From a virus, in the IMG/VR virus record IMGVR_UViG_3300027969_002165, positions 1 through 20,869 of that record: DNA of 20,869 nt, one strand, 5' to 3'. The notes under the pieces are model-generated. The model saw only the letters and a program-made list of their open reading frames with translations, made no database searches and was not told where the DNA came from. Below are positions 2,543-19,847 of the stretch, piece by piece. The translations under genes were made by a program, and so were the position numbers. The first letter of the stretch is position 1; each line of letters starts with the position of its first letter.

Positions 2543-2571
2543 TTGACACTAGCATAGTAGTATGCTATAAT
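2543..2571 (+). promoter_or_regulatory. Strong sigma70-like promoter of the dnaJ-clpA unit
   Basis: TTGACA (2543-2548), a 17-base spacer and TATAAT (2566-2571) with the extended -10 element TGC. The ATG at 2578 follows after only six bases, so the transcript should start at or next to the ATG. A perfect 7-bp inverted repeat, TAGCATA (2550-2556) and TATGCTA (2561-2567), lies in the spacer and runs into the -10. The 12-mer TATGCTATAATG recurs in the tilS promoter. Confidence 0.85.
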
Positions 2572-2577
2572 GTTTAA

Positions 2578-3384
2578 ATGGACCATTACAGTACTTTAGG
2601 TGTTGCCAAGAATGCAGCACCGGACGAAATCAAAAAAGCATATCGCAAACTGGCTAGTCAGCATCATCCTGACAAAGGTGGCGACAAGGCTAAATTCCAA
2701 GATATTCAAGTTGCCTACGATACACTAAGCGACCCAAACAAACGACAACAATACGACAATCCTGCTCCTCAAGGATTTCATCAACAAGGTGGAGTACCCC
2801 CTGGATTTGAACATATATTCAGTCAGATGTTTGGTGGCGGTAACCCGTTTGACCCGTTTAATCAGCGTAGACAACAACCTCAACAACAAGTATTCCGAAC
2901 AACAATAAATATAACATTACAACAAGCATATCATGGTGGTGAACAAATACTAAAATTACAAACACCTACTAATACACATGCGGTAACCATTCAAGTACCC
3001 AAAGGTATACAAAATGGTAATCAAATGAAAATTGATAACGTATTAGATGGTGCTAGTTTAATAGTAGATTTTCGGGTCGAACCCCATCTTAAATACGATA
3101 GACAAGGTAATGATTTAATTTGTAATCATACTATATCAGTATTTGATTTGATAGTCGGTACAACTTTTGAATTCACTACCTTGTCAGGAAAAACACTTGA
3201 GGTAACTGTAAAACCAAAGACACAACCACACATACAATTAAAATTATCAGGACAAGGAATGCCCATTTATAATACATCGGCGTTCGGTGACCAAATAATC
3301 TTGCTGAAACCGTTTATTCCCGATATAATAGACGAACAAGTTATCAATAGTATTCTTCAACAAAAAACAAAGGAGTCTAAATGA
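2578..3384 (+). CDS. dnaJ: DnaJ-type co-chaperone without zinc finger
   Basis: The 268-residue protein begins with a J domain (about 1-62) with HPD at 30-32, the signature that activates Hsp70 ATPase. A Gly/Phe-rich linker follows (about 68-100, GGGNPFDPF), then a two-part C-terminal substrate-binding region (about 105-255) with GNDLICNHTISVFDLIVGTTFEF, like the DnaJ/CbpA C-terminal domains. The CxxCxGxG zinc repeats of full DnaJ are absent, so this is the CbpA-like class, somewhat shorter than CbpA (306 aa). It would work with host DnaK in the cytoplasm. The ATG is only six bases after the -10, so the message is apparently leaderless. The stop overlaps the clpA start by four bases (ATGA), linking it to an unfoldase. 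Confidence 0.93.
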   Translation: MDHYSTLGVAKNAAPDEIKKAYRKLASQHHPDKGGDKAKFQDIQVAYDTLSDPNKRQQYDNPAPQGFHQQGGVPPGFEHIFSQMFGGGNPFDPFNQRRQQPQQQVFRTTINITLQQAYHGGEQILKLQTPTNTHAVTIQVPKGIQNGNQMKIDNVLDGASLIVDFRVEPHLKYDRQGNDLICNHTISVFDLIVGTTFEFTTLSGKTLEVTVKPKTQPHIQLKLSGQGMPIYNTSAFGDQIILLKPFIPDIIDEQVINSILQQKTKESK

Positions 3385-5642
3385 CACATTCACCCGAAAT
3401 AGATAGTATTATTGAAAATGCTATTCACTATAGCAAAGAACGTAAACACCAATACGTAACCGTAGAGCATCTATTGTTATCACTAATAACCCATACTTCA
3501 TTTAAAAAATGCTTAGTAAGTTTTGGTGCTGATATTGATTCAATGTCACAAGAAATAAGTGCATATTTGGATAGTCTACATGCTATTGTAAGCAAAGATG
3601 ATGAAGTAGTACCCCGTAAAACTAATAGTTTAGAACGTGTAATGAATCGTTCAGTAACACAAGTATTGTTTAGCGGGCGTAGGCAAGTTACTACAATCGA
3701 CTTATACTTAAGTATTGCATCCGAAGGCAATAGTCATGCACATTATTTCTTACTTAAATATGGAATTAATAAAAATGAATTTGTTGGGCATTGGCAAAAA
3801 CATTATAAGCACAATGAAACTAGCAATCTAACTGATACACAAGCGGATGAAATCCTAGAAGAACATACTACTAACTTAACTCAACTAGCAGCACAGGGTA
3901 AACTTGAGCCATTAATTGGTCGTAGTAAAGAACTTGATGATATTATCAATGTCCTAGCTAAACGATTCAAGTCAAATGTATTGATGGTAGGTGACCCTGG
4001 CGTTGGTAAGACCGCTATTGCTGAAGGTTTGGCGCAGATGATGATTAACAAAGAAGTACCTGAATTTCTACAAGATCATCAGCTATATAGTTTAGAGATT
4101 GGCTCATTGCTTGCGGGTAGTAAGTATCGCGGCGACTTTGAAGAAAAAGTTAAAGCAGTATTGGACGCATTGAACACAAAGAAAAAGACTATTCTTTTTA
4201 TTGATGAAGCACATACTATGCAAGGCGCAGGTGGTGCTAACAATGGTAGTGTTGATTTCAGTAACATGATTAAGCCAGCAATTACTAAGGGAACTCTTAA
4301 AGTTATTGCTAGTACAACATGGGAAGAATACTACGAATCATTTGAGAAGGACCGTGCATTGATGCGTAGGTTCTATCGTGTTTCAGTTGATGAACCTAAC
4401 CATGACACAACGATTCGTATTTTGAATGGATTGAGTTTAAGACTTAATGACTTCCACAATGTTGAAATTAGTGATGAGGCAATCAAAGCAGCAGTTGAAA
4501 GTGCTGACCGTTATATTCATGACCGTAAGAATCCAGACAAGTCCATTGACTTGCTTGATGCCGCGTGTGCTAAACAACGTGTAGCAGAGAACAAGGGTGC
4601 AATCATTACTAAAGAATTAGTATTTGACCAAGTTGAACGTTTCACCGGAGTACCCGCTGATAAGATGAAGGGTGACAACTTTGATTTGATTCATAACTTA
4701 GAATCAAACATCAAAGACAAACTATACGGTCAAGATGAAACTGTACAACAAGTGCTTGAACGTATCTATGTTAACTTTGCTGGTATCGGTAACGACACTA
4801 AGCCAACAGGTAGTTTCTTATTTTTAGGACCAACTGGTACTGGTAAGACTGAACTTGCTAAACTACTAAGCAAGAACTTAGACATGCCTTTACTCAAGTA
4901 TGACATGAGCGAGTATGCAGAGAAGCATAGCGTTAGTAGTTTGATTGGGCCTCCTCCTGGCTATGTTGGGTTTGGTGATAGTCAAGTATCCGGTGGACGA
5001 TTGATTAATGACTTAAGTAAGAACCCACATTCAATCATGTTGTTTGATGAGGTTGAAAAAGCACATCCAGATATCTTTAATATCTTCTTACAAATGTTAG
5101 ATGAAGGACATATCACTGGTAGTAACGGTAAGCAAGTTAACTGTAAGAATAGTATCATTATTATGACCAGTAATTTGGGAAGTAGTGATAGTGAGCGCAA
5201 CAACATTGGATTCGGTAGTCAAGAGAAGACCGGAGAAGATGACAGAGCATTAAAAGAATTCTTTAAGCCTGAGTTTCGTAACCGTGTTGACTTGATTTGC
5301 AAGTTTAACAAATTGGATACACTTGCTATTAAGAAGATTGTTATTAAGTTTACCGATGACTTGAAAAAGAGTTTGGTTGACAAACATGATATCACATTAA
5401 ACTTAAGTGAACCGGTAGTAGAATTCTTAGCGAATCAAGGGTACGATAAGAAAATGGGCGCACGACCATTATCACGTAAGATTGATGAATTGATTCGGGT
5501 ACCTCTAAGTAAGAAGGTCTTGTTTGAACGCATTAAATCTGCTACAATTAACTGTGTAATGACAGACGGTGCAATTGATTTTGCAGTAACACATAAACTA
5601 ACAGCTAAGGTGAATGAAGATGGGATTATTGAGGTCAGTTAA
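3381..5642 (+). CDS. clpA: ClpA-like double-AAA+ unfoldase with ClpP-docking loop
   Basis: At 753 residues this matches E. coli ClpA (758). An N-terminal Clp repeat domain (about 1-140) is followed by AAA1 with Walker A GDPGVGKT (204-211) and Walker B ILFIDEAH (D275, E276), and AAA2 with Walker A GPTGTGKT (483-490) and Walker B IMLFDEVEKAHP (D556, E557), sensor region FKPEFRNRVD and arginine motif GARPLSRKI. There is no coiled-coil M domain between the AAA modules, which separates it from ClpB. IGF at 609-611, in the loop before FKPEFRNRVD, matches the IGL/IGF tripeptide by which ClpA/ClpX dock to ClpP. No clpP or clpS is in the window, so a host ClpP is the likely partner. AAAGGAG precedes the ATG. 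It is co-transcribed with dnaJ. Confidence 0.93.
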   Translation: MTHSPEIDSIIENAIHYSKERKHQYVTVEHLLLSLITHTSFKKCLVSFGADIDSMSQEISAYLDSLHAIVSKDDEVVPRKTNSLERVMNRSVTQVLFSGRRQVTTIDLYLSIASEGNSHAHYFLLKYGINKNEFVGHWQKHYKHNETSNLTDTQADEILEEHTTNLTQLAAQGKLEPLIGRSKELDDIINVLAKRFKSNVLMVGDPGVGKTAIAEGLAQMMINKEVPEFLQDHQLYSLEIGSLLAGSKYRGDFEEKVKAVLDALNTKKKTILFIDEAHTMQGAGGANNGSVDFSNMIKPAITKGTLKVIASTTWEEYYESFEKDRALMRRFYRVSVDEPNHDTTIRILNGLSLRLNDFHNVEISDEAIKAAVESADRYIHDRKNPDKSIDLLDAACAKQRVAENKGAIITKELVFDQVERFTGVPADKMKGDNFDLIHNLESNIKDKLYGQDETVQQVLERIYVNFAGIGNDTKPTGSFLFLGPTGTGKTELAKLLSKNLDMPLLKYDMSEYAEKHSVSSLIGPPPGYVGFGDSQVSGGRLINDLSKNPHSIMLFDEVEKAHPDIFNIFLQMLDEGHITGSNGKQVNCKNSIIIMTSNLGSSDSERNNIGFGSQEKTGEDDRALKEFFKPEFRNRVDLICKFNKLDTLAIKKIVIKFTDDLKKSLVDKHDITLNLSEPVVEFLANQGYDKKMGARPLSRKIDELIRVPLSKKVLFERIKSATINCVMTDGAIDFAVTHKLTAKVNEDGIIEVS

Positions 5643-6348
5643 AGACGTTCCGAATATTGATTATTATGAATATAAGGAAAACAACTATTACAACAACTAT
5701 AGATATCGTGCTAAATTCAGAATAGATGGGTTGGGTCTTTCTAGCTATGCTAAAACTCCAGAAGATTTAGTAAAACGAATAGATTCTACTGGATACAATA
5801 GGTTGAGAGTAGATAGAAAAGCTATGGTTGTAGGAAATTTCAACGAAATTACTAACTTCATTGATTGGCGTAATGCTAACAAAAAACCCAGAACGGTGGG
5901 TTTTAGACTTGAGGGTGATACTGCTTCAGTTTACAGCAACGATTTAAATTTGTTACTTACATTGAAGGAACTTGGACCAATTACTGTAAAAATTACTGAG
6001 GTACAATTAGAGCAATTTGCTGGTACAAAGTACTATGTCAATAAGCCAAAGCATAACTACAGGATTTATTTAAAAACTGCTTATATTGAAGATAAGAATT
6101 TTATCAAAGATTTGTGTGATACTGTTAAGAAAAGTAAAGAATTGGTTCCAAGCAATGCGTTACGTGACTGGTTAGATGGGTATATTAAACGGCCAATTGC
6201 TGCACTTAACAGTTGGAGTTATCGCTATACTAGCGGAACTCATTCTATTGATTATGATAGTGAAAGTACATTAAGTTATCTGATGTTAATGTATGGACAT
6301 ATGCTTGGAAAACGATACAAATTAGAAAAACGTCCCGATCCTGTCTAA
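5620..6348 (+). CDS. Phage protein of unknown function overlapping clpA
   Basis: About 242 residues, rich in Tyr, Asn and Lys, with an aromatic N-terminal part (NIDYYEYKENNYYNNYRYRAK). I do not recognise a family or catalytic motif, and there is no signal peptide or membrane segment. The gene overlaps the end of clpA by 23 bases. Two in-frame ATGs exist: 5614 is only three bases from AAGG (5607-5610) and 5620 is nine bases away, so 5620 is preferred. As the third gene behind the sigma70-like promoter it is probably expressed early with dnaJ and clpA. A perfect 8-bp inverted repeat (AAAACCCA, TGGGTTTT) lies inside the gene at 5883-5904. Confidence 0.75.
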   Translation: MGLLRSVKDVPNIDYYEYKENNYYNNYRYRAKFRIDGLGLSSYAKTPEDLVKRIDSTGYNRLRVDRKAMVVGNFNEITNFIDWRNANKKPRTVGFRLEGDTASVYSNDLNLLLTLKELGPITVKITEVQLEQFAGTKYYVNKPKHNYRIYLKTAYIEDKNFIKDLCDTVKKSKELVPSNALRDWLDGYIKRPIAALNSWSYRYTSGTHSIDYDSESTLSYLMLMYGHMLGKRYKLEKRPDPV

Positions 6349-6349
6349 A

Positions 6350-6378
6350 ATGATAAATACTCTACGGAGTATTATCAT
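6350..6378 (+). promoter_or_regulatory. Late promoter embedded in a hairpin that covers the RBS and ATG
   Basis: GATAAATA (6352-6359) is a late box with a predicted start near 6365. In RNA coming from upstream, ATGATA (6350-6355), a bulged A and ATACTC (6357-6362) pair with GAGTAT (6367-6372) and TATCAT (6373-6378) around a C(UACG)G tetraloop, a very stable loop type. The 3' arm holds the GGAG ribosome-binding site and the first bases of the ATG at 6377. RNA started at the late promoter would lack the 5' arm and stay open. T4 genes e and soc are known to work this way. Confidence 0.75.
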
Positions 6379-6544
6379 GGCAAAAATCGTAGAGGACATA
6401 TTAGTTGTCAAATTCAGTAAAATCGTTAAAGATTCAGACACCGACAATGGTGGACTTGTAGGTGCAGATGTTCAGGCTGCGCTAGAACAAGTTGCACAAG
6501 AATTAGTCGGTGAAGCAGTTGTCGTAGAAGTGGTAAGAGCATAA
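6377..6544 (+). CDS. Small phage protein, unknown function
   Basis: A 55-residue protein beginning MAKIVEDILVVKFSKIVKD, acidic in the middle, with a helix-prone end rich in Ala, Val and Glu (VQAALEQVAQELVGEA). No family assigned. The start at 6377 is chosen over the in-frame ATG at 6350 because 6350 lies upstream of the predicted late transcription start, whereas 6377 has GGAG at 6366-6369. The last base of its stop is the first base of the next ATG (TAATG), so the two are translationally coupled. Its position before a virion-like protein suggests a late structural or assembly role. Confidence 0.65.
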   Translation: MAKIVEDILVVKFSKIVKDSDTDNGGLVGADVQAALEQVAQELVGEAVVVEVVRA

Positions 6545-6903
6545 TGAGCCAATCTACAACCCTTATTCTGTTCCCGCAGACAGCCTATGTTAATCCGGGT
6601 AATGCAGCACCCTACACTGTTGTAGGGAATGCTCAGCCTGCTGCTGCTTATTATTTAGGCAACAGAGATTTACAAACAGTCAACCTTAGTGTGTCAAACA
6701 TTATTGGTAACATTGTTATTCAAGCAACACTAGCAAATCCTGCAACCGTAGACAATCAATGGTTTGATGTATATGAGTTTAACGGAAGTGACAATCCAAA
6801 CGCAACACAATATACAAATATAACTGGTAATTTTGTGTATATGAGAGCAAAGATTGTAGACTTCAATCAAGGTGTAGTTAATTACGTTAAGTTAAGTTAT
6901 TAA
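6544..6903 (+). CDS. Probable virion structural protein
   Basis: The 119-residue protein has the alternating pattern of a small beta-sandwich and resembles short structural proteins seen in T4-like phages of cyanobacteria and other aquatic hosts, with motifs such as AAAYYLGNRDLQTVNLSVSN, GNIVIQATLANP and NITGNFVYMRAKI ending in VNYVKLSY. It has very few charged residues and no cysteine, in keeping with an extracellular or virion surface role, perhaps tail or fibre associated. The assignment rests on remembered pattern similarity and not on a search. It overlaps the previous stop by one base and is in the late unit driven from 6352. Confidence 0.65.
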   Translation: MSQSTTLILFPQTAYVNPGNAAPYTVVGNAQPAAAYYLGNRDLQTVNLSVSNIIGNIVIQATLANPATVDNQWFDVYEFNGSDNPNATQYTNITGNFVYMRAKIVDFNQGVVNYVKLSY

Positions 6904-11227: not shown

Positions 11228-11956
11228 ATGAATTATAAAATCAAATTATTAATAGTGTTTAACCACGTTATTTCAATCGTAGGTTTAATTTATGGAAATT
11301 TATGGTTGCTAGCTGCATCATTAATTGCCTTTTTATTAATTACTAAACTGGGCGGAGAGGTAGGGTTACATAGATATTTCTCTCATCGTAGTTTTAAAAC
11401 GACTAGATTTTGGCATTATACTATGTTAATATTAGGTAGTCTAAATTGTTTTGGTCCACCAATGGCATGGGCAGGCGTACATAGAAAACATCATGCTACC
11501 TCAGATACTGATGCTGATCCACACGGAAATCAACCAGCATGGAAAATATGGTTAACATTATGGAAACCTTTTAATATAGAAGTTAAACATATAAAAGATA
11601 TGTTAAGAGATAAAGAACAAATGATAATGTATAATTATTATTTTTGGTTTATTGGATTAGTCTGGTTATCATTGTTTCTTATTAATTGGCAACTTCCTAT
11701 CTTTTTAATTAGTATCCCTAGTGTTTTGGCATTCCATTCTGCTGGATTAGTCAATACAGTATGTCATATTGCAGGTGAAAAACTATACGAAACCAATGAC
11801 AATAGTTACAATAATCGCTGGGTAAATTTGATTACTTTGGGTAGTGGATTACATAATACCCATCATGCGTTCCCTTCTGGATGGGACAATAGGCGTAACA
11901 AATGGGATATTGATCTCCCCGCAGTCATAATTAAACATATATTGATAAAACAATAG
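11228..11956 (+). CDS. Membrane fatty acid (acyl-lipid/acyl-CoA) desaturase
   Basis: All three histidine boxes of the di-iron delta-9-type desaturases are present: HRYFSH (48-53), HRKHH (85-89) and HNTHH (209-213). Hydrophobic segments lie at about 8-40, 62-82, 133-150 and 152-172, so the enzyme sits in the inner membrane and would introduce a double bond into host acyl chains using oxygen and an electron donor from the host. At 242 residues it is shorter than most bacterial members (about 270-320) but has the whole catalytic core. It follows the nucleotidyltransferase after five bases and has no clear ribosome-binding site. Lying in a late unit, it may alter membrane fluidity before lysis or supply lipids; this is inference. 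Confidence 0.92.
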   Translation: MNYKIKLLIVFNHVISIVGLIYGNLWLLAASLIAFLLITKLGGEVGLHRYFSHRSFKTTRFWHYTMLILGSLNCFGPPMAWAGVHRKHHATSDTDADPHGNQPAWKIWLTLWKPFNIEVKHIKDMLRDKEQMIMYNYYFWFIGLVWLSLFLINWQLPIFLISIPSVLAFHSAGLVNTVCHIAGEKLYETNDNSYNNRWVNLITLGSGLHNTHHAFPSGWDNRRNKWDIDLPAVIIKHILIKQ

Positions 11957-15716: not shown

Positions 15717-16157
15717 ATGTTAACAGAAGATTTAAAAGTATTATTGGCAAGTGTTAACTCATTGTCTATCAAAGCACAAAACTTTCATTGGAATGTAGAA
15801 GGAGACAACTTCCCTCAATATCACGAATTCTTTGGTAATTTCTATGAAGAAGTTTACAGCGCAGTAGATAAAGTTGCTGAATACATTCGTACATTAGATA
15901 GTTATGCACCCGGCAGCTTAACACGCTATGCTGAATTAACTATCATTCAAGACCAACTTAAGATTCCTCGTGCTGAATTAATGTTTGCTGAATTGTATGA
16001 AGATAATAGCAAGATGATTGATTTACTTAATCATTGCTTTGCCTCCGCTTCACAAGAAAACAAACAAGGTATTGCTAACTTTATCGCTGAAAGATTAGAT
16101 GCTCACGAAAAACATCAATGGCAGCTTAGAAGCATCTTGAAAAAAGCCAGAGCGTAA
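15717..16157 (+). CDS. dps: Dps/ferritin-like protein with one altered ferroxidase ligand
   Basis: The 146-residue protein aligns with Dps over nearly its whole length: KAQNFHWNVEGDNFPQYHEFF and YEEVYSAVDKVAEYIR are the signature helices. Of the five inter-subunit ferroxidase ligands of E. coli Dps (H51, H63, D67, D78, E82), H24, H36, D51 and E55 are present, but the position of D67 is Gly40 (HEFFGNFY). Iron oxidation may therefore be weak. There is no long lysine-rich N-terminal extension for DNA binding. Dps forms a 12-subunit cage that stores iron and protects DNA from peroxide. The ATG follows AAAGGAT. It is in the late operon, between the GNAT fusion and the lysin, and its stop overlaps the next start by one base. 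Confidence 0.88.
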   Translation: MLTEDLKVLLASVNSLSIKAQNFHWNVEGDNFPQYHEFFGNFYEEVYSAVDKVAEYIRTLDSYAPGSLTRYAELTIIQDQLKIPRAELMFAELYEDNSKMIDLLNHCFASASQENKQGIANFIAERLDAHEKHQWQLRSILKKARA

Positions 16158-16923: not shown

Positions 16924-17736
16924 ATGAAAAAAATACTAGCACTAATACTGATGGCACTTTCATTTACCGCATCAGCTTGGACACAACGTCCACCAAATCC
17001 TCCGTCTGCATGTAAAGTACATGCTCCATACGGATTCCCGCAAACACAAAATGTTCAACCTATTTGCCGTCAAGGATATCTAGTTGGATATGATGCTGCT
17101 GCAAAGATACCCAAATTTGTAACATACGAATTAATGCCACCTAACGCATTGGGTTGTGTGGGTAGAACAAATGCTTTTGCAGTTGATCAATCTATACCAA
17201 ATGGTCCTAAACCAGATGATTATGCTGGTACAGGTTTTGATAAAGGACATATGAGTCCAGATGGTGATCTATCTTGGGATGTTCAAGTAGAATATGAAAG
17301 TTTCTTAATGACTAATATGAGTCCTCAAGCCGGTTCATTAAATCGTGGTATATGGAAACTATTAGAAACAAGTGTACGCGGATGGGCTGTTCAACGTAAT
17401 CAAAGTTATACAATTTATGTAGGTGGAGTATATAATGCACAAGATAAGAAAATCGGCAACGGCGTCGTTGTTCCTCATGGTTATTACAAAATTGTTATCA
17501 ATAATCAAACGAACGAAGTAGCAGGATGGGCATTTCCGCATGTTGCACCTTATCCTAACTTAGGTAATGACTTAACTAAGTTTCGTTTACCAATTAGTCA
17601 AATTCAAACAATGGCAGGGGTGAAATATATGTTTCCTGCTAATGCCAAAGAATTAAATCCTGGCCAAGAATGGCCCGTTGACTTTGGTGCTCTTACTAAT
17701 GCTAAACGTATTAAGTGTGGCAAGTCAGACGATTAA
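16924..17736 (+). CDS. Secreted DNA/RNA non-specific endonuclease
   Basis: The 270-residue protein starts with a clear Sec signal peptide (KK, hydrophobic core ILALILMALSF, cleavage probably after ASA at 18). The mature part is a NUC1/EndA-type beta-beta-alpha metal nuclease: FDKGHMSPDGDL with D106-K-G-H109 (general base His109; Lys replaces the usual Arg of DRGH), NMSPQ (N131), and LNRGIWKLLE with metal-ligand N140 and E148. It would be exported to the periplasm or medium and degrade DNA and RNA. Four cysteines in the mature part could form disulfides there. It follows the lysin by two bases in the late operon. It may clear host nucleic acid at lysis, supply nucleotides, or destroy DNA of competing phages. 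Confidence 0.92.
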   Translation: MKKILALILMALSFTASAWTQRPPNPPSACKVHAPYGFPQTQNVQPICRQGYLVGYDAAAKIPKFVTYELMPPNALGCVGRTNAFAVDQSIPNGPKPDDYAGTGFDKGHMSPDGDLSWDVQVEYESFLMTNMSPQAGSLNRGIWKLLETSVRGWAVQRNQSYTIYVGGVYNAQDKKIGNGVVVPHGYYKIVINNQTNEVAGWAFPHVAPYPNLGNDLTKFRLPISQIQTMAGVKYMFPANAKELNPGQEWPVDFGALTNAKRIKCGKSDD

Positions 17737-17753
17737 TATTAATAATAATATTC

Positions 17754-18294: not shown

Positions 18295-18326
18295 GTGAGC
18301 ACTTTTGATAAATACATAATGCTCAC
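18295..18326 (+). promoter_or_regulatory. Late promoter inside a 7-bp inverted repeat covering the ATG
   Basis: GATAAATA (18307-18314) followed by four bases and the ATG at 18319. GTGAGCA (18295-18301) and TGCTCAC (18320-18326) form a perfect 7-bp repeat; the 3' arm contains the last two bases of the ATG. RNA started at the late promoter would lack the 5' arm and be leaderless. Confidence 0.65.
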
Positions 18327-18903: not shown

Positions 18904-18929
18904 AGATAAATCTATGCTATAATGCATAG
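18895..18929 (+). promoter_or_regulatory. Sigma70-like promoter of tilS with a dyad centred on the -10
   Basis: TATAAT (18918-18923) with extended element TGC and a weak -35 TTTCAA (18895-18900) at 17 bases. The ATG follows after six bases, so the mRNA is probably leaderless. CTATGC (18912-18917) and GCATAG (18924-18929) form a perfect dyad around the -10. The 12-mer TATGCTATAATG is identical to the dnaJ promoter. Confidence 0.75.
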
Positions 18930-19538
18930 ATGCTAAAACTACTCTTTCCATTGCCAAAAGAAATCGTTGTCGCACTTAGCGGTGGCGTAGACTCTGTTGC
19001 TATCACAGATTTCCTTTCACATAAACATAAGGTAGGGTGTGCTTTCTTTCATCATGGAACAGAAAATAGTGAGCGGGCATTTGAATTTGTTGCCAATTTC
19101 TGCACTGAACATAATCTTCCATTGATGATCGGAATGATTAAAAATAGTAAACCCAAAGAACTTAGCATGGAAGAACATTGGCGTAATGAACGTTATGACT
19201 TTTTAGATAGCATTGGCAATTCATTAGGTCCAGTCATTACCGGACATCATCTGGATGACTGTGTAGAAACATATCTTTGGTCAGCGATGCATGGGCAAGC
19301 TAAAGTTATCCCGGCAAAAAGAAACAATATTGTACGCCCATTTTTAACTACAAACAAAAACGAATTTACAAAATGGTGCGAACAGAAATCTATTGGTTGG
19401 TGTCACGACAATAGTAACGATGACACAAAATATATGCGTAACTATGTACGCACACAATTAATGCCACACGCATTACACGTTAACCCTGGACTGCGTACTG
19501 TGGTTAAAAAGATTGTAGAAAAACAGCAAAATGTTTGA
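18930..19538 (+). CDS. tilS: TilS-like PP-loop ATPase (tRNA-Ile lysidine synthetase type)
   Basis: The 202-residue protein is an N-type ATP pyrophosphatase. SGGVDS (17-22) is the PP-loop, and GHHLDDCVETYLW, IVRPFL and WCHDNSNDDTKYMRNYVR match TilS motifs (TilS: GHHLDDQAET, W-x-D-x-SN-x-D-x-x-Y-x-RN). TilS converts C34 of tRNA-Ile(CAU) to lysidine so that it reads AUA. The protein keeps the catalytic domain but lacks the C-terminal domains of the about 430-residue E. coli enzyme, like other short TilS proteins. AUA codons are used freely in the window, which makes the role sensible. It is expressed from an early-type promoter, next to the replication genes. Another PP-loop tRNA-modifying function cannot be excluded. 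Confidence 0.85.
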   Translation: MLKLLFPLPKEIVVALSGGVDSVAITDFLSHKHKVGCAFFHHGTENSERAFEFVANFCTEHNLPLMIGMIKNSKPKELSMEEHWRNERYDFLDSIGNSLGPVITGHHLDDCVETYLWSAMHGQAKVIPAKRNNIVRPFLTTNKNEFTKWCEQKSIGWCHDNSNDDTKYMRNYVRTQLMPHALHVNPGLRTVVKKIVEKQQNV

Positions 19539-19586: not shown

Positions 19587-19847
19587 ATGAGTAGTAAAAT
19601 GTTTACCGGAGAGCAAAAGATTAAGTTGACTCAACTTATCAACGAGGGCATGGTAGTCCTACACGAGATTGATACTCTACGTGAGGGTCTATCTGATACT
19701 GTGAAAGCTATCGCAGAAGAACTGGAAGTAAAGCCAGGCATTCTTAAGAAGGCAATATCTGTCGCACACAAAGCAAGTCTTGGTCAAACAAACGCTGACC
19801 ACGAAGAACTAAATACTATTTTGGAAACTGTGGGTAAAACACTTTGA
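19587..19847 (+). CDS. dsbA: DsbA-like small dsDNA-binding transcription accessory protein
   Basis: The 86-residue, mostly helical protein has LREGLSDTVKAIAEELEVKPGILKKAISVAHKASLGQTN, which parallels T4 DsbA in length (89) and in the pattern of its C-terminal half (KDELGV, a helix with Lys, then a variable acidic end). T4 DsbA binds double-stranded DNA near late promoters and is thought to aid late transcription. It lies just upstream of the DNA polymerase, with its TGA stop overlapping the polymerase TTG start, so the two are coupled. The link to late transcription fits the many late boxes in the window. Identification is by pattern and could be wrong at the family level. Confidence 0.6.
   Translation: MSSKMFTGEQKIKLTQLINEGMVVLHEIDTLREGLSDTVKAIAEELEVKPGILKKAISVAHKASLGQTNADHEELNTILETVGKTL

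Follow-up and report, generated by a model that had tools for sequence, protein, structure and literature searches.

In phage T4, a handful of genes are described as being under the control of a translational switch, in which the ribosome-binding site is sequestered on one transcript and available on another. Genes controlled in this way include T4 e, soc, 49 and I-TevI as well as Aeh1 mobE (PMC3014915; PMC2988022). In T4 I-TevI, I-TevII, I-TevIII and soc and in Aeh1 mobE, the site is sequestered on early or middle RNA and freed late (PMC2988022). For the lysozyme gene e, repression of early transcripts has been measured, with early e synthesis cut 100-fold, and the sequence that specifies the 5' strand of the masking helix also contains the late promoter (PMC3014915).

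Here we describe a hairpin that joins this switch type already known in T4. It was found in a 20,869-base uncultured virus record, a genome fragment from a large T4-related phage; we refer to this record in its entirety as the window. A preliminary description had likened the hairpin to the T4 switch, rightly, and had presented the merging of promoter and anti-ribosome-binding sequence as a novelty. The latter claim falls, because in three T4 leaders, those of e, 49 and I-TevII, the masking arm of the hairpin already includes the late box. The leader of T4 gene 49 resembles that of the window in having ATAAATA in the 5' arm, the Shine-Dalgarno sequence and ATG in the 3' arm and the previous stop codon just upstream, but the gene is unrelated, the loop is longer and the stem reads ATAAATACCCTTA/TAAGGGTTTAT. 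T4 e differs in having two late boxes and in being a lysis gene, and its repression is measured whereas that of the window gene is predicted only. The I-Tev, soc and mobE leaders mostly belong to homing endonucleases, unlike the window leader, and the soc box is located just outside the stem.

Late promoter box within a predicted start-masking hairpin

Positions 6350-6378 of the window read ATGATAAATACTC-TACG-GAGTATTATCAT and comprise the following features, given together with the gene they precede:

6350-6362, + strand: 5' arm of the hairpin, with one bulged A, including the late box (sequence, fold, relatives)
6352-6359, + strand: late promoter box GATAAATA (sequence; ATAAATA enrichment and a gp55-like sigma factor in large relatives)
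6363-6366, + strand: UACG loop, with the predicted late transcription start at ~6365 (sequence; spacing from box to leaderless start in relatives)
6367-6378, + strand: 3' arm GAGTATTATCAT, with Shine-Dalgarno GAG and the start-codon A and T (sequence, fold, opening cost)
6377-6544, + strand: gene predicted to be controlled, 55 aa (MAKIVED...; 194 sequence relatives in IMG/VR; alignment)

All coordinates given earlier were right, and we confirmed a 12-bp stem that is capped by a C(UACG)G loop, bulges one A (at 6355 or 6356) and has the late box in its 5' arm. The pairing partners are ATGATA/TATCAT and ATACTC/GAGTAT. The 3' arm had been said to contain GGAG and the beginning of the ATG. This was correct for GAG and for the A and T that open the ATG (6377-6379), both of which are paired, but the first G of the Shine-Dalgarno GGAG (6366-6369) is in the loop.

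The RNA fold of 6340-6400 reached -14 kcal/mol (z -3.2), a value equalled by none of 200 shuffles. Among the 22 gene starts of the window that were examined, the hairpin start had the highest opening cost (14.2 versus 10.2 for the next). Shuffling the upstream part masked the start equally in 35 of 2000 cases, and in 155 of 2000 when the box was kept. Judged from this single sequence, the fold is only moderately unlikely to arise by chance; we consider the hairpin secured by its conservation in relatives. No Rfam family scored above its gathering score in the window. As a covariance-model search of the closest relative returned no other strong copy, the hairpin is not a repeated element. Initiation at the in-frame ATG at 6350, which would add nine residues, was rejected: this codon has no Shine-Dalgarno sequence, and the leader lengths of relatives differ by non-multiples of three.

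We propose that the hairpin acts as a start-site lock that would tie translation of the 55-aa gene to late transcription. Early RNA reading through from the upstream dnaJ-clpA-orf244 unit would contain both arms and fold, hiding the Shine-Dalgarno sequence and the start codon. Late RNA would start in the loop, at ~6365, and its leader of ~12 nt would lack the 5' arm and remain open. The folding predictions agree with this. On the longer RNA the Shine-Dalgarno sequence and AUG are placed in a helix whose 5' arm includes the box, and the predicted cost of opening the start is 12.5 kcal/mol on the read-through RNA versus 1.0 kcal/mol on RNA starting at 6365. Across 63 homologous loci the median costs are 13.5 and 2.7 kcal/mol, respectively. 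T4 controls treated in the same way gave read-through and late values of 15.8 and 0.9 for e, 14.4 and 2.8 for 49, 13.3 and 0.4 for I-TevII, and 7.5 and 4.8 for soc, so that the window is comparable with e and 49. Of the switch as first interpreted, a closed read-through RNA and an open late RNA is the best-supported reading, while the novelty attached to it did not stand. We regard a start-site lock that depends on late transcription as the best explanation of this locus, and as a probable one. The sequences show the hairpin with its conservation and covariation, its association with the upstream unit, the sigma-70 promoter of that unit and the late-transcription proteins of relatives. What we infer is where late RNA starts, that read-through occurs during infection, that it leads to actual repression, and the purpose of the lock, which would be to prevent early expression of two adjacent genes that are probably virion genes.

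Leader hairpins in related phages

To determine how the leader varies, we retrieved 80 homologs through their similarity to the 55-aa protein, without selection for the hairpin. These yielded 55 distinct leaders, 42 with orf244 directly upstream and 13 without it. All 42 leaders with orf244 upstream were locked, with start opening costs of 7.1-19.8 kcal/mol, and the lock persisted even where orf244 identity was only 25%. The UACG tetraloop is not conserved among homologous leaders, and loop length ranges from 4 to ~10 nt.

Covariation of the two arms, proposed earlier as a check, was analysed in the 37 distinct leaders with an ATAAATA box. Standard pairs occupied 93.7% of stem cells, compared with 39-53% when the register was slid. 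Eight stem cells carried double changes versus 3.4 in shuffles, and one of 500 shuffles reached eight, with the qualification that the shuffles ignore kinship. Most change in the stem is one-sided, because the late box cannot vary. In one group of leaders GGAG has become AGGG, with pairing held by U-A and U-G exchange. From an exact-pattern scan of IMG/VR, which itself selects for pairing, we took only features that the pattern does not fix. Among the matches listed, inner pairs outside the search pattern covary (~60 protein starts), and an ATG follows within 9 nt in 87 of 120 distinct ATAAATACTC-loop-GAGTAT sites. GGAG occurs in 50 of these 87 sites versus 3 of the other 33, again among the matches listed.

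Of the 13 leaders without orf244, 12 had opening costs of at most 8.1 kcal/mol. Six (L127, L129, L142, L143, L160 and L163) have a GC-rich hairpin and a T run just before a CTAAATA box, and by eye these hairpins read as intrinsic terminators. Three have no late box (L132, L133 and L139). The thirteenth, L184, carries CCTCCGCTAAATAGTCGCGGAGGTTTTTT (~4960-5000), a terminator-like hairpin whose loop includes the late box and whose 3' arm includes Shine-Dalgarno GGAGG; judged by its sequence, this is a terminator version of the switch at the homologous gene. Retention of the box with loss of the complementary 3' arm had been named as the pattern that would speak against the switch. It occurs in none of the 42 leaders with orf244, but the remaining three leaders without orf244 (L155, L164 and L195) lack a hairpin, although a CTAAATA box is placed 7 nt upstream of their ATG. 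These three, which have dnaJ-clpA upstream, count against the lock; in them, the Shine-Dalgarno sequence is missing instead.

Gene neighbourhood

The genes around the hairpin are arranged as follows:

2543-2571, + strand: TTGACA-17-TATAAT promoter of the sigma-70 type, TG preceding its -10 box (12/12 consensus matches)
2578-3384, + strand: dnaJ-like gene, first in the upstream unit (translation, PHROG matches; upstream position kept in relatives)
3381-5642, + strand: clpA/clpB-like ATPase gene (phrog_4871, E-value of 1.9e-234)
5614-6348, + strand: orf244, last gene of the dnaJ-clpA-orf244 unit (reading frame; its stop ends 1 nt before the hairpin)
6544-6903, + strand: orf119, whose start overlaps the stop of the 55-aa gene (AlphaFold model, mean pLDDT 87.6; structure comparison)

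The genes of the dnaJ-clpA-orf244 unit are co-directional, as judged from sequence, and no terminator was found between them and the 55-aa gene. Given this and the sigma-70 promoter at their head, early RNA could reach the hairpin. The -10 box of the promoter ends 6 nt short of the dnaJ ATG, and a TTGA-N18-20-TA promoter is found immediately 5' of dnaJ in 34 of 41 distinct relatives. In these 34, the predicted dnaJ start lies at most 2 nt from the ATG, so the early dnaJ mRNA also looks leaderless. An inverted repeat, TAGCATA/TATGCTA, which may be an operator or an RNA structure, is located between the -35 and -10 boxes (window 2551-2568). Its arms differ yet stay complementary in many relatives (TAGCACA/TGTGCTA, TTAGCAGA/TCTGCTAA and TAACGCA/TGCGTTA), and a DNA-symmetry test on this palindrome gave a weak signal (z up to 2.7). 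A second palindrome, CTATGC-TATAAT-GCATAG, surrounds a -10 box at window 18912-18930; a TilS-like PP-loop gene has its ATG 6 nt downstream of this box.

The 55-aa protein had no Pfam or PHROG match, and tblastn against 50,697 phage records likewise returned no match. Its structure model consists of one helix with poorly defined flanks. The orf119 model is a predicted beta-sandwich resembling XepA/YomS (Z 10.2 and 10.0) and, less closely, a phage cement protein; tblastn of the phage records gave no match for orf119 either. We suggest that the 55-aa gene and orf119 form a probable virion gene pair. Elsewhere in the window, the late-gene region includes a Dps-like gene (15717-16157; PHROG 'DNA binding protein') and a nuclease gene (16924-17739). 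Another gene of this region, at 11228-11956, was read by eye as fatty-acid-desaturase-like; its only PHROG match is weak, to a family with no assigned function.

Late promoters and predicted leaderless late genes

Components of late transcription of the T4 and cyanophage type are present in this clade. ATAAATA is strongly enriched before gene starts in the large relatives, and in three relatives the box-to-ATG distances of NATAAATA stood far above those of permuted 7-mers. A gp55-like late sigma factor (phrog_234) was detected in 6/6 large relatives and in 0/14 control genomes, and the gp55-like protein of G002 matches phrog_12791 (E-value of 4.5e-73). The window itself encodes one such component:

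19587-19847: DsbA-like late-transcription protein (25% identical to KVP40 DsbA)

Three large relatives were analysed for their late promoters: G002, which shares 87% identity with most of the window length, G004 and G005. They contain a sharp class of late genes with the box 4-6 nt before the ATG, comprising 9, 23 and 4 genes, respectively (36 in total); in G004, 17 of 58 boxed genes have a spacing of exactly 5. A Shine-Dalgarno-like sequence precedes only 1 of these 36 genes versus 55 of 71 leadered late genes, and we predict that the close-box genes make leaderless late mRNAs. The pieces assigned to this class are L211-L222 in G002, L224-L240 in G004, L241-L252 in G005, and positions 768-780 and 18308-18319 in the window. 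Here, a GATAAATA box precedes the ATG at 18319 by 4 nt, and the GTG at 18295 given as the ORF start is probably wrong (window 18295-18319). The excess of 4-6 nt spacings was also observed in G003, G007 and pelagiphage HTVC008M, and was absent from T4, S-PM2, P-SSM2, KVP40 and Aeh1. Because the sharp box-to-ATG class fits a start six nucleotides after the end of the box, the T4 spacing, a late start at ~6365 is supported indirectly.

Alternative explanations for the hairpin

The proximity of orf244 raises the question of translational coupling, in which the hairpin blocks free initiation and ribosomes ending at the orf244 stop open it. The early product would then be proportional to orf244, and late translation would be uncoupled. 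The distance from the orf244 stop to the hairpin is tightly kept (median 1 nt over 42 relatives, mostly 0 to 6), and a 5' arm at this distance would fall inside the footprint of a ribosome terminating at that stop. With the stop 1 nt from the hairpin, as in the window, a terminating ribosome might melt the 5' arm and couple both genes. Short distances are, however, expected from close gene packing alone. Moreover, T4 e, in which nudE stops 37 nt and the stem begins ~36 nt ahead of the e start, has about the same geometry, yet its early synthesis falls 100-fold (PMC3014915). Early repression at similar spacing in T4 e favours the lock as the probable reading for the window gene, and we consider coupling unlikely.

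Three further explanations were weighed against the lock. A by-product of composition, with chance pairing of GGAG and an AT-rich leader to the late box, would be in line with the 155 of 2000 shuffled leaders that mask the start as strongly when the box is fixed. Other late promoters of the same genomes, however, have the box and a Shine-Dalgarno sequence and no hairpin, and CTC follows the box in 3 of 43 such G002 promoters versus 36 of 37 homologous leaders. Together with conservation and covariation, this comparison strongly disfavours a chance origin, which we regard as very improbable. An intrinsic terminator halting read-through before the 55-aa gene would suit a hairpin directly 3' of orf244, and terminator-like hairpins occupy this site in some other lineages. 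Yet the window hairpin has only three G-C pairs and no T run after its stem and is absent from the list of a terminator scan, leaving this reading with hardly any probability. The same low probability attaches to an element acting in DNA, either a palindromic operator or a bidirectional promoter. It draws on GAGTATTTAT, which in some relatives is a late box on the opposite strand, but the reverse box is missing from the window and most relatives, and the range of loop lengths could not be tolerated by a dimer on two half-sites. The bidirectional promoter in particular was rejected because the reverse box occurs in only part of the relatives.

Predicted locks at other late genes of the clade

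We also determined how often other late genes carry a lock. In G002, G004 and G005, 75 late promoters had a suitable leader length, and a leader was called locked when its start was masked more than in 95% of shuffles. By this measure, 17 of the 75 were locked versus 3.75 expected. An upstream gene on the same strand was present for all 17 locked promoters versus 45 of the 58 others (Fisher p 0.025). Several of these locks differ in geometry, with arms that flank the box on both sides. Orthologous genes are locked by unrelated stems, namely GTGTTACCT/AGGTAACAC in G002 and GTGCGTTTCCT/AGGAAACGCAC in G004.

These observations might point to a clade-wide design in which many late genes depend for their translation on the late start, either through locks in box-containing hairpins or through leaderless starts that lack a Shine-Dalgarno sequence; we put this forward tentatively, at somewhat below even chances. 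If true, both classes would be poorly translated from read-through RNA, and the ribosome, in addition to the promoter, would enforce timing. In a limited search of the open-access literature, we found no description of either the recurrence of locks across a clade or their coupling with leaderless genes. Locks and leaderless starts would also offer a simple mark in the sequence by which late genes and their start sites could be recognised in uncultured phages. The lock is kept over large divergence, rebuilt with unrelated stems, and substituted by terminator-like hairpins in some lineages with a different neighbour. This suggests that read-through from early units into late genes is a real cost, which phages repeatedly solve.
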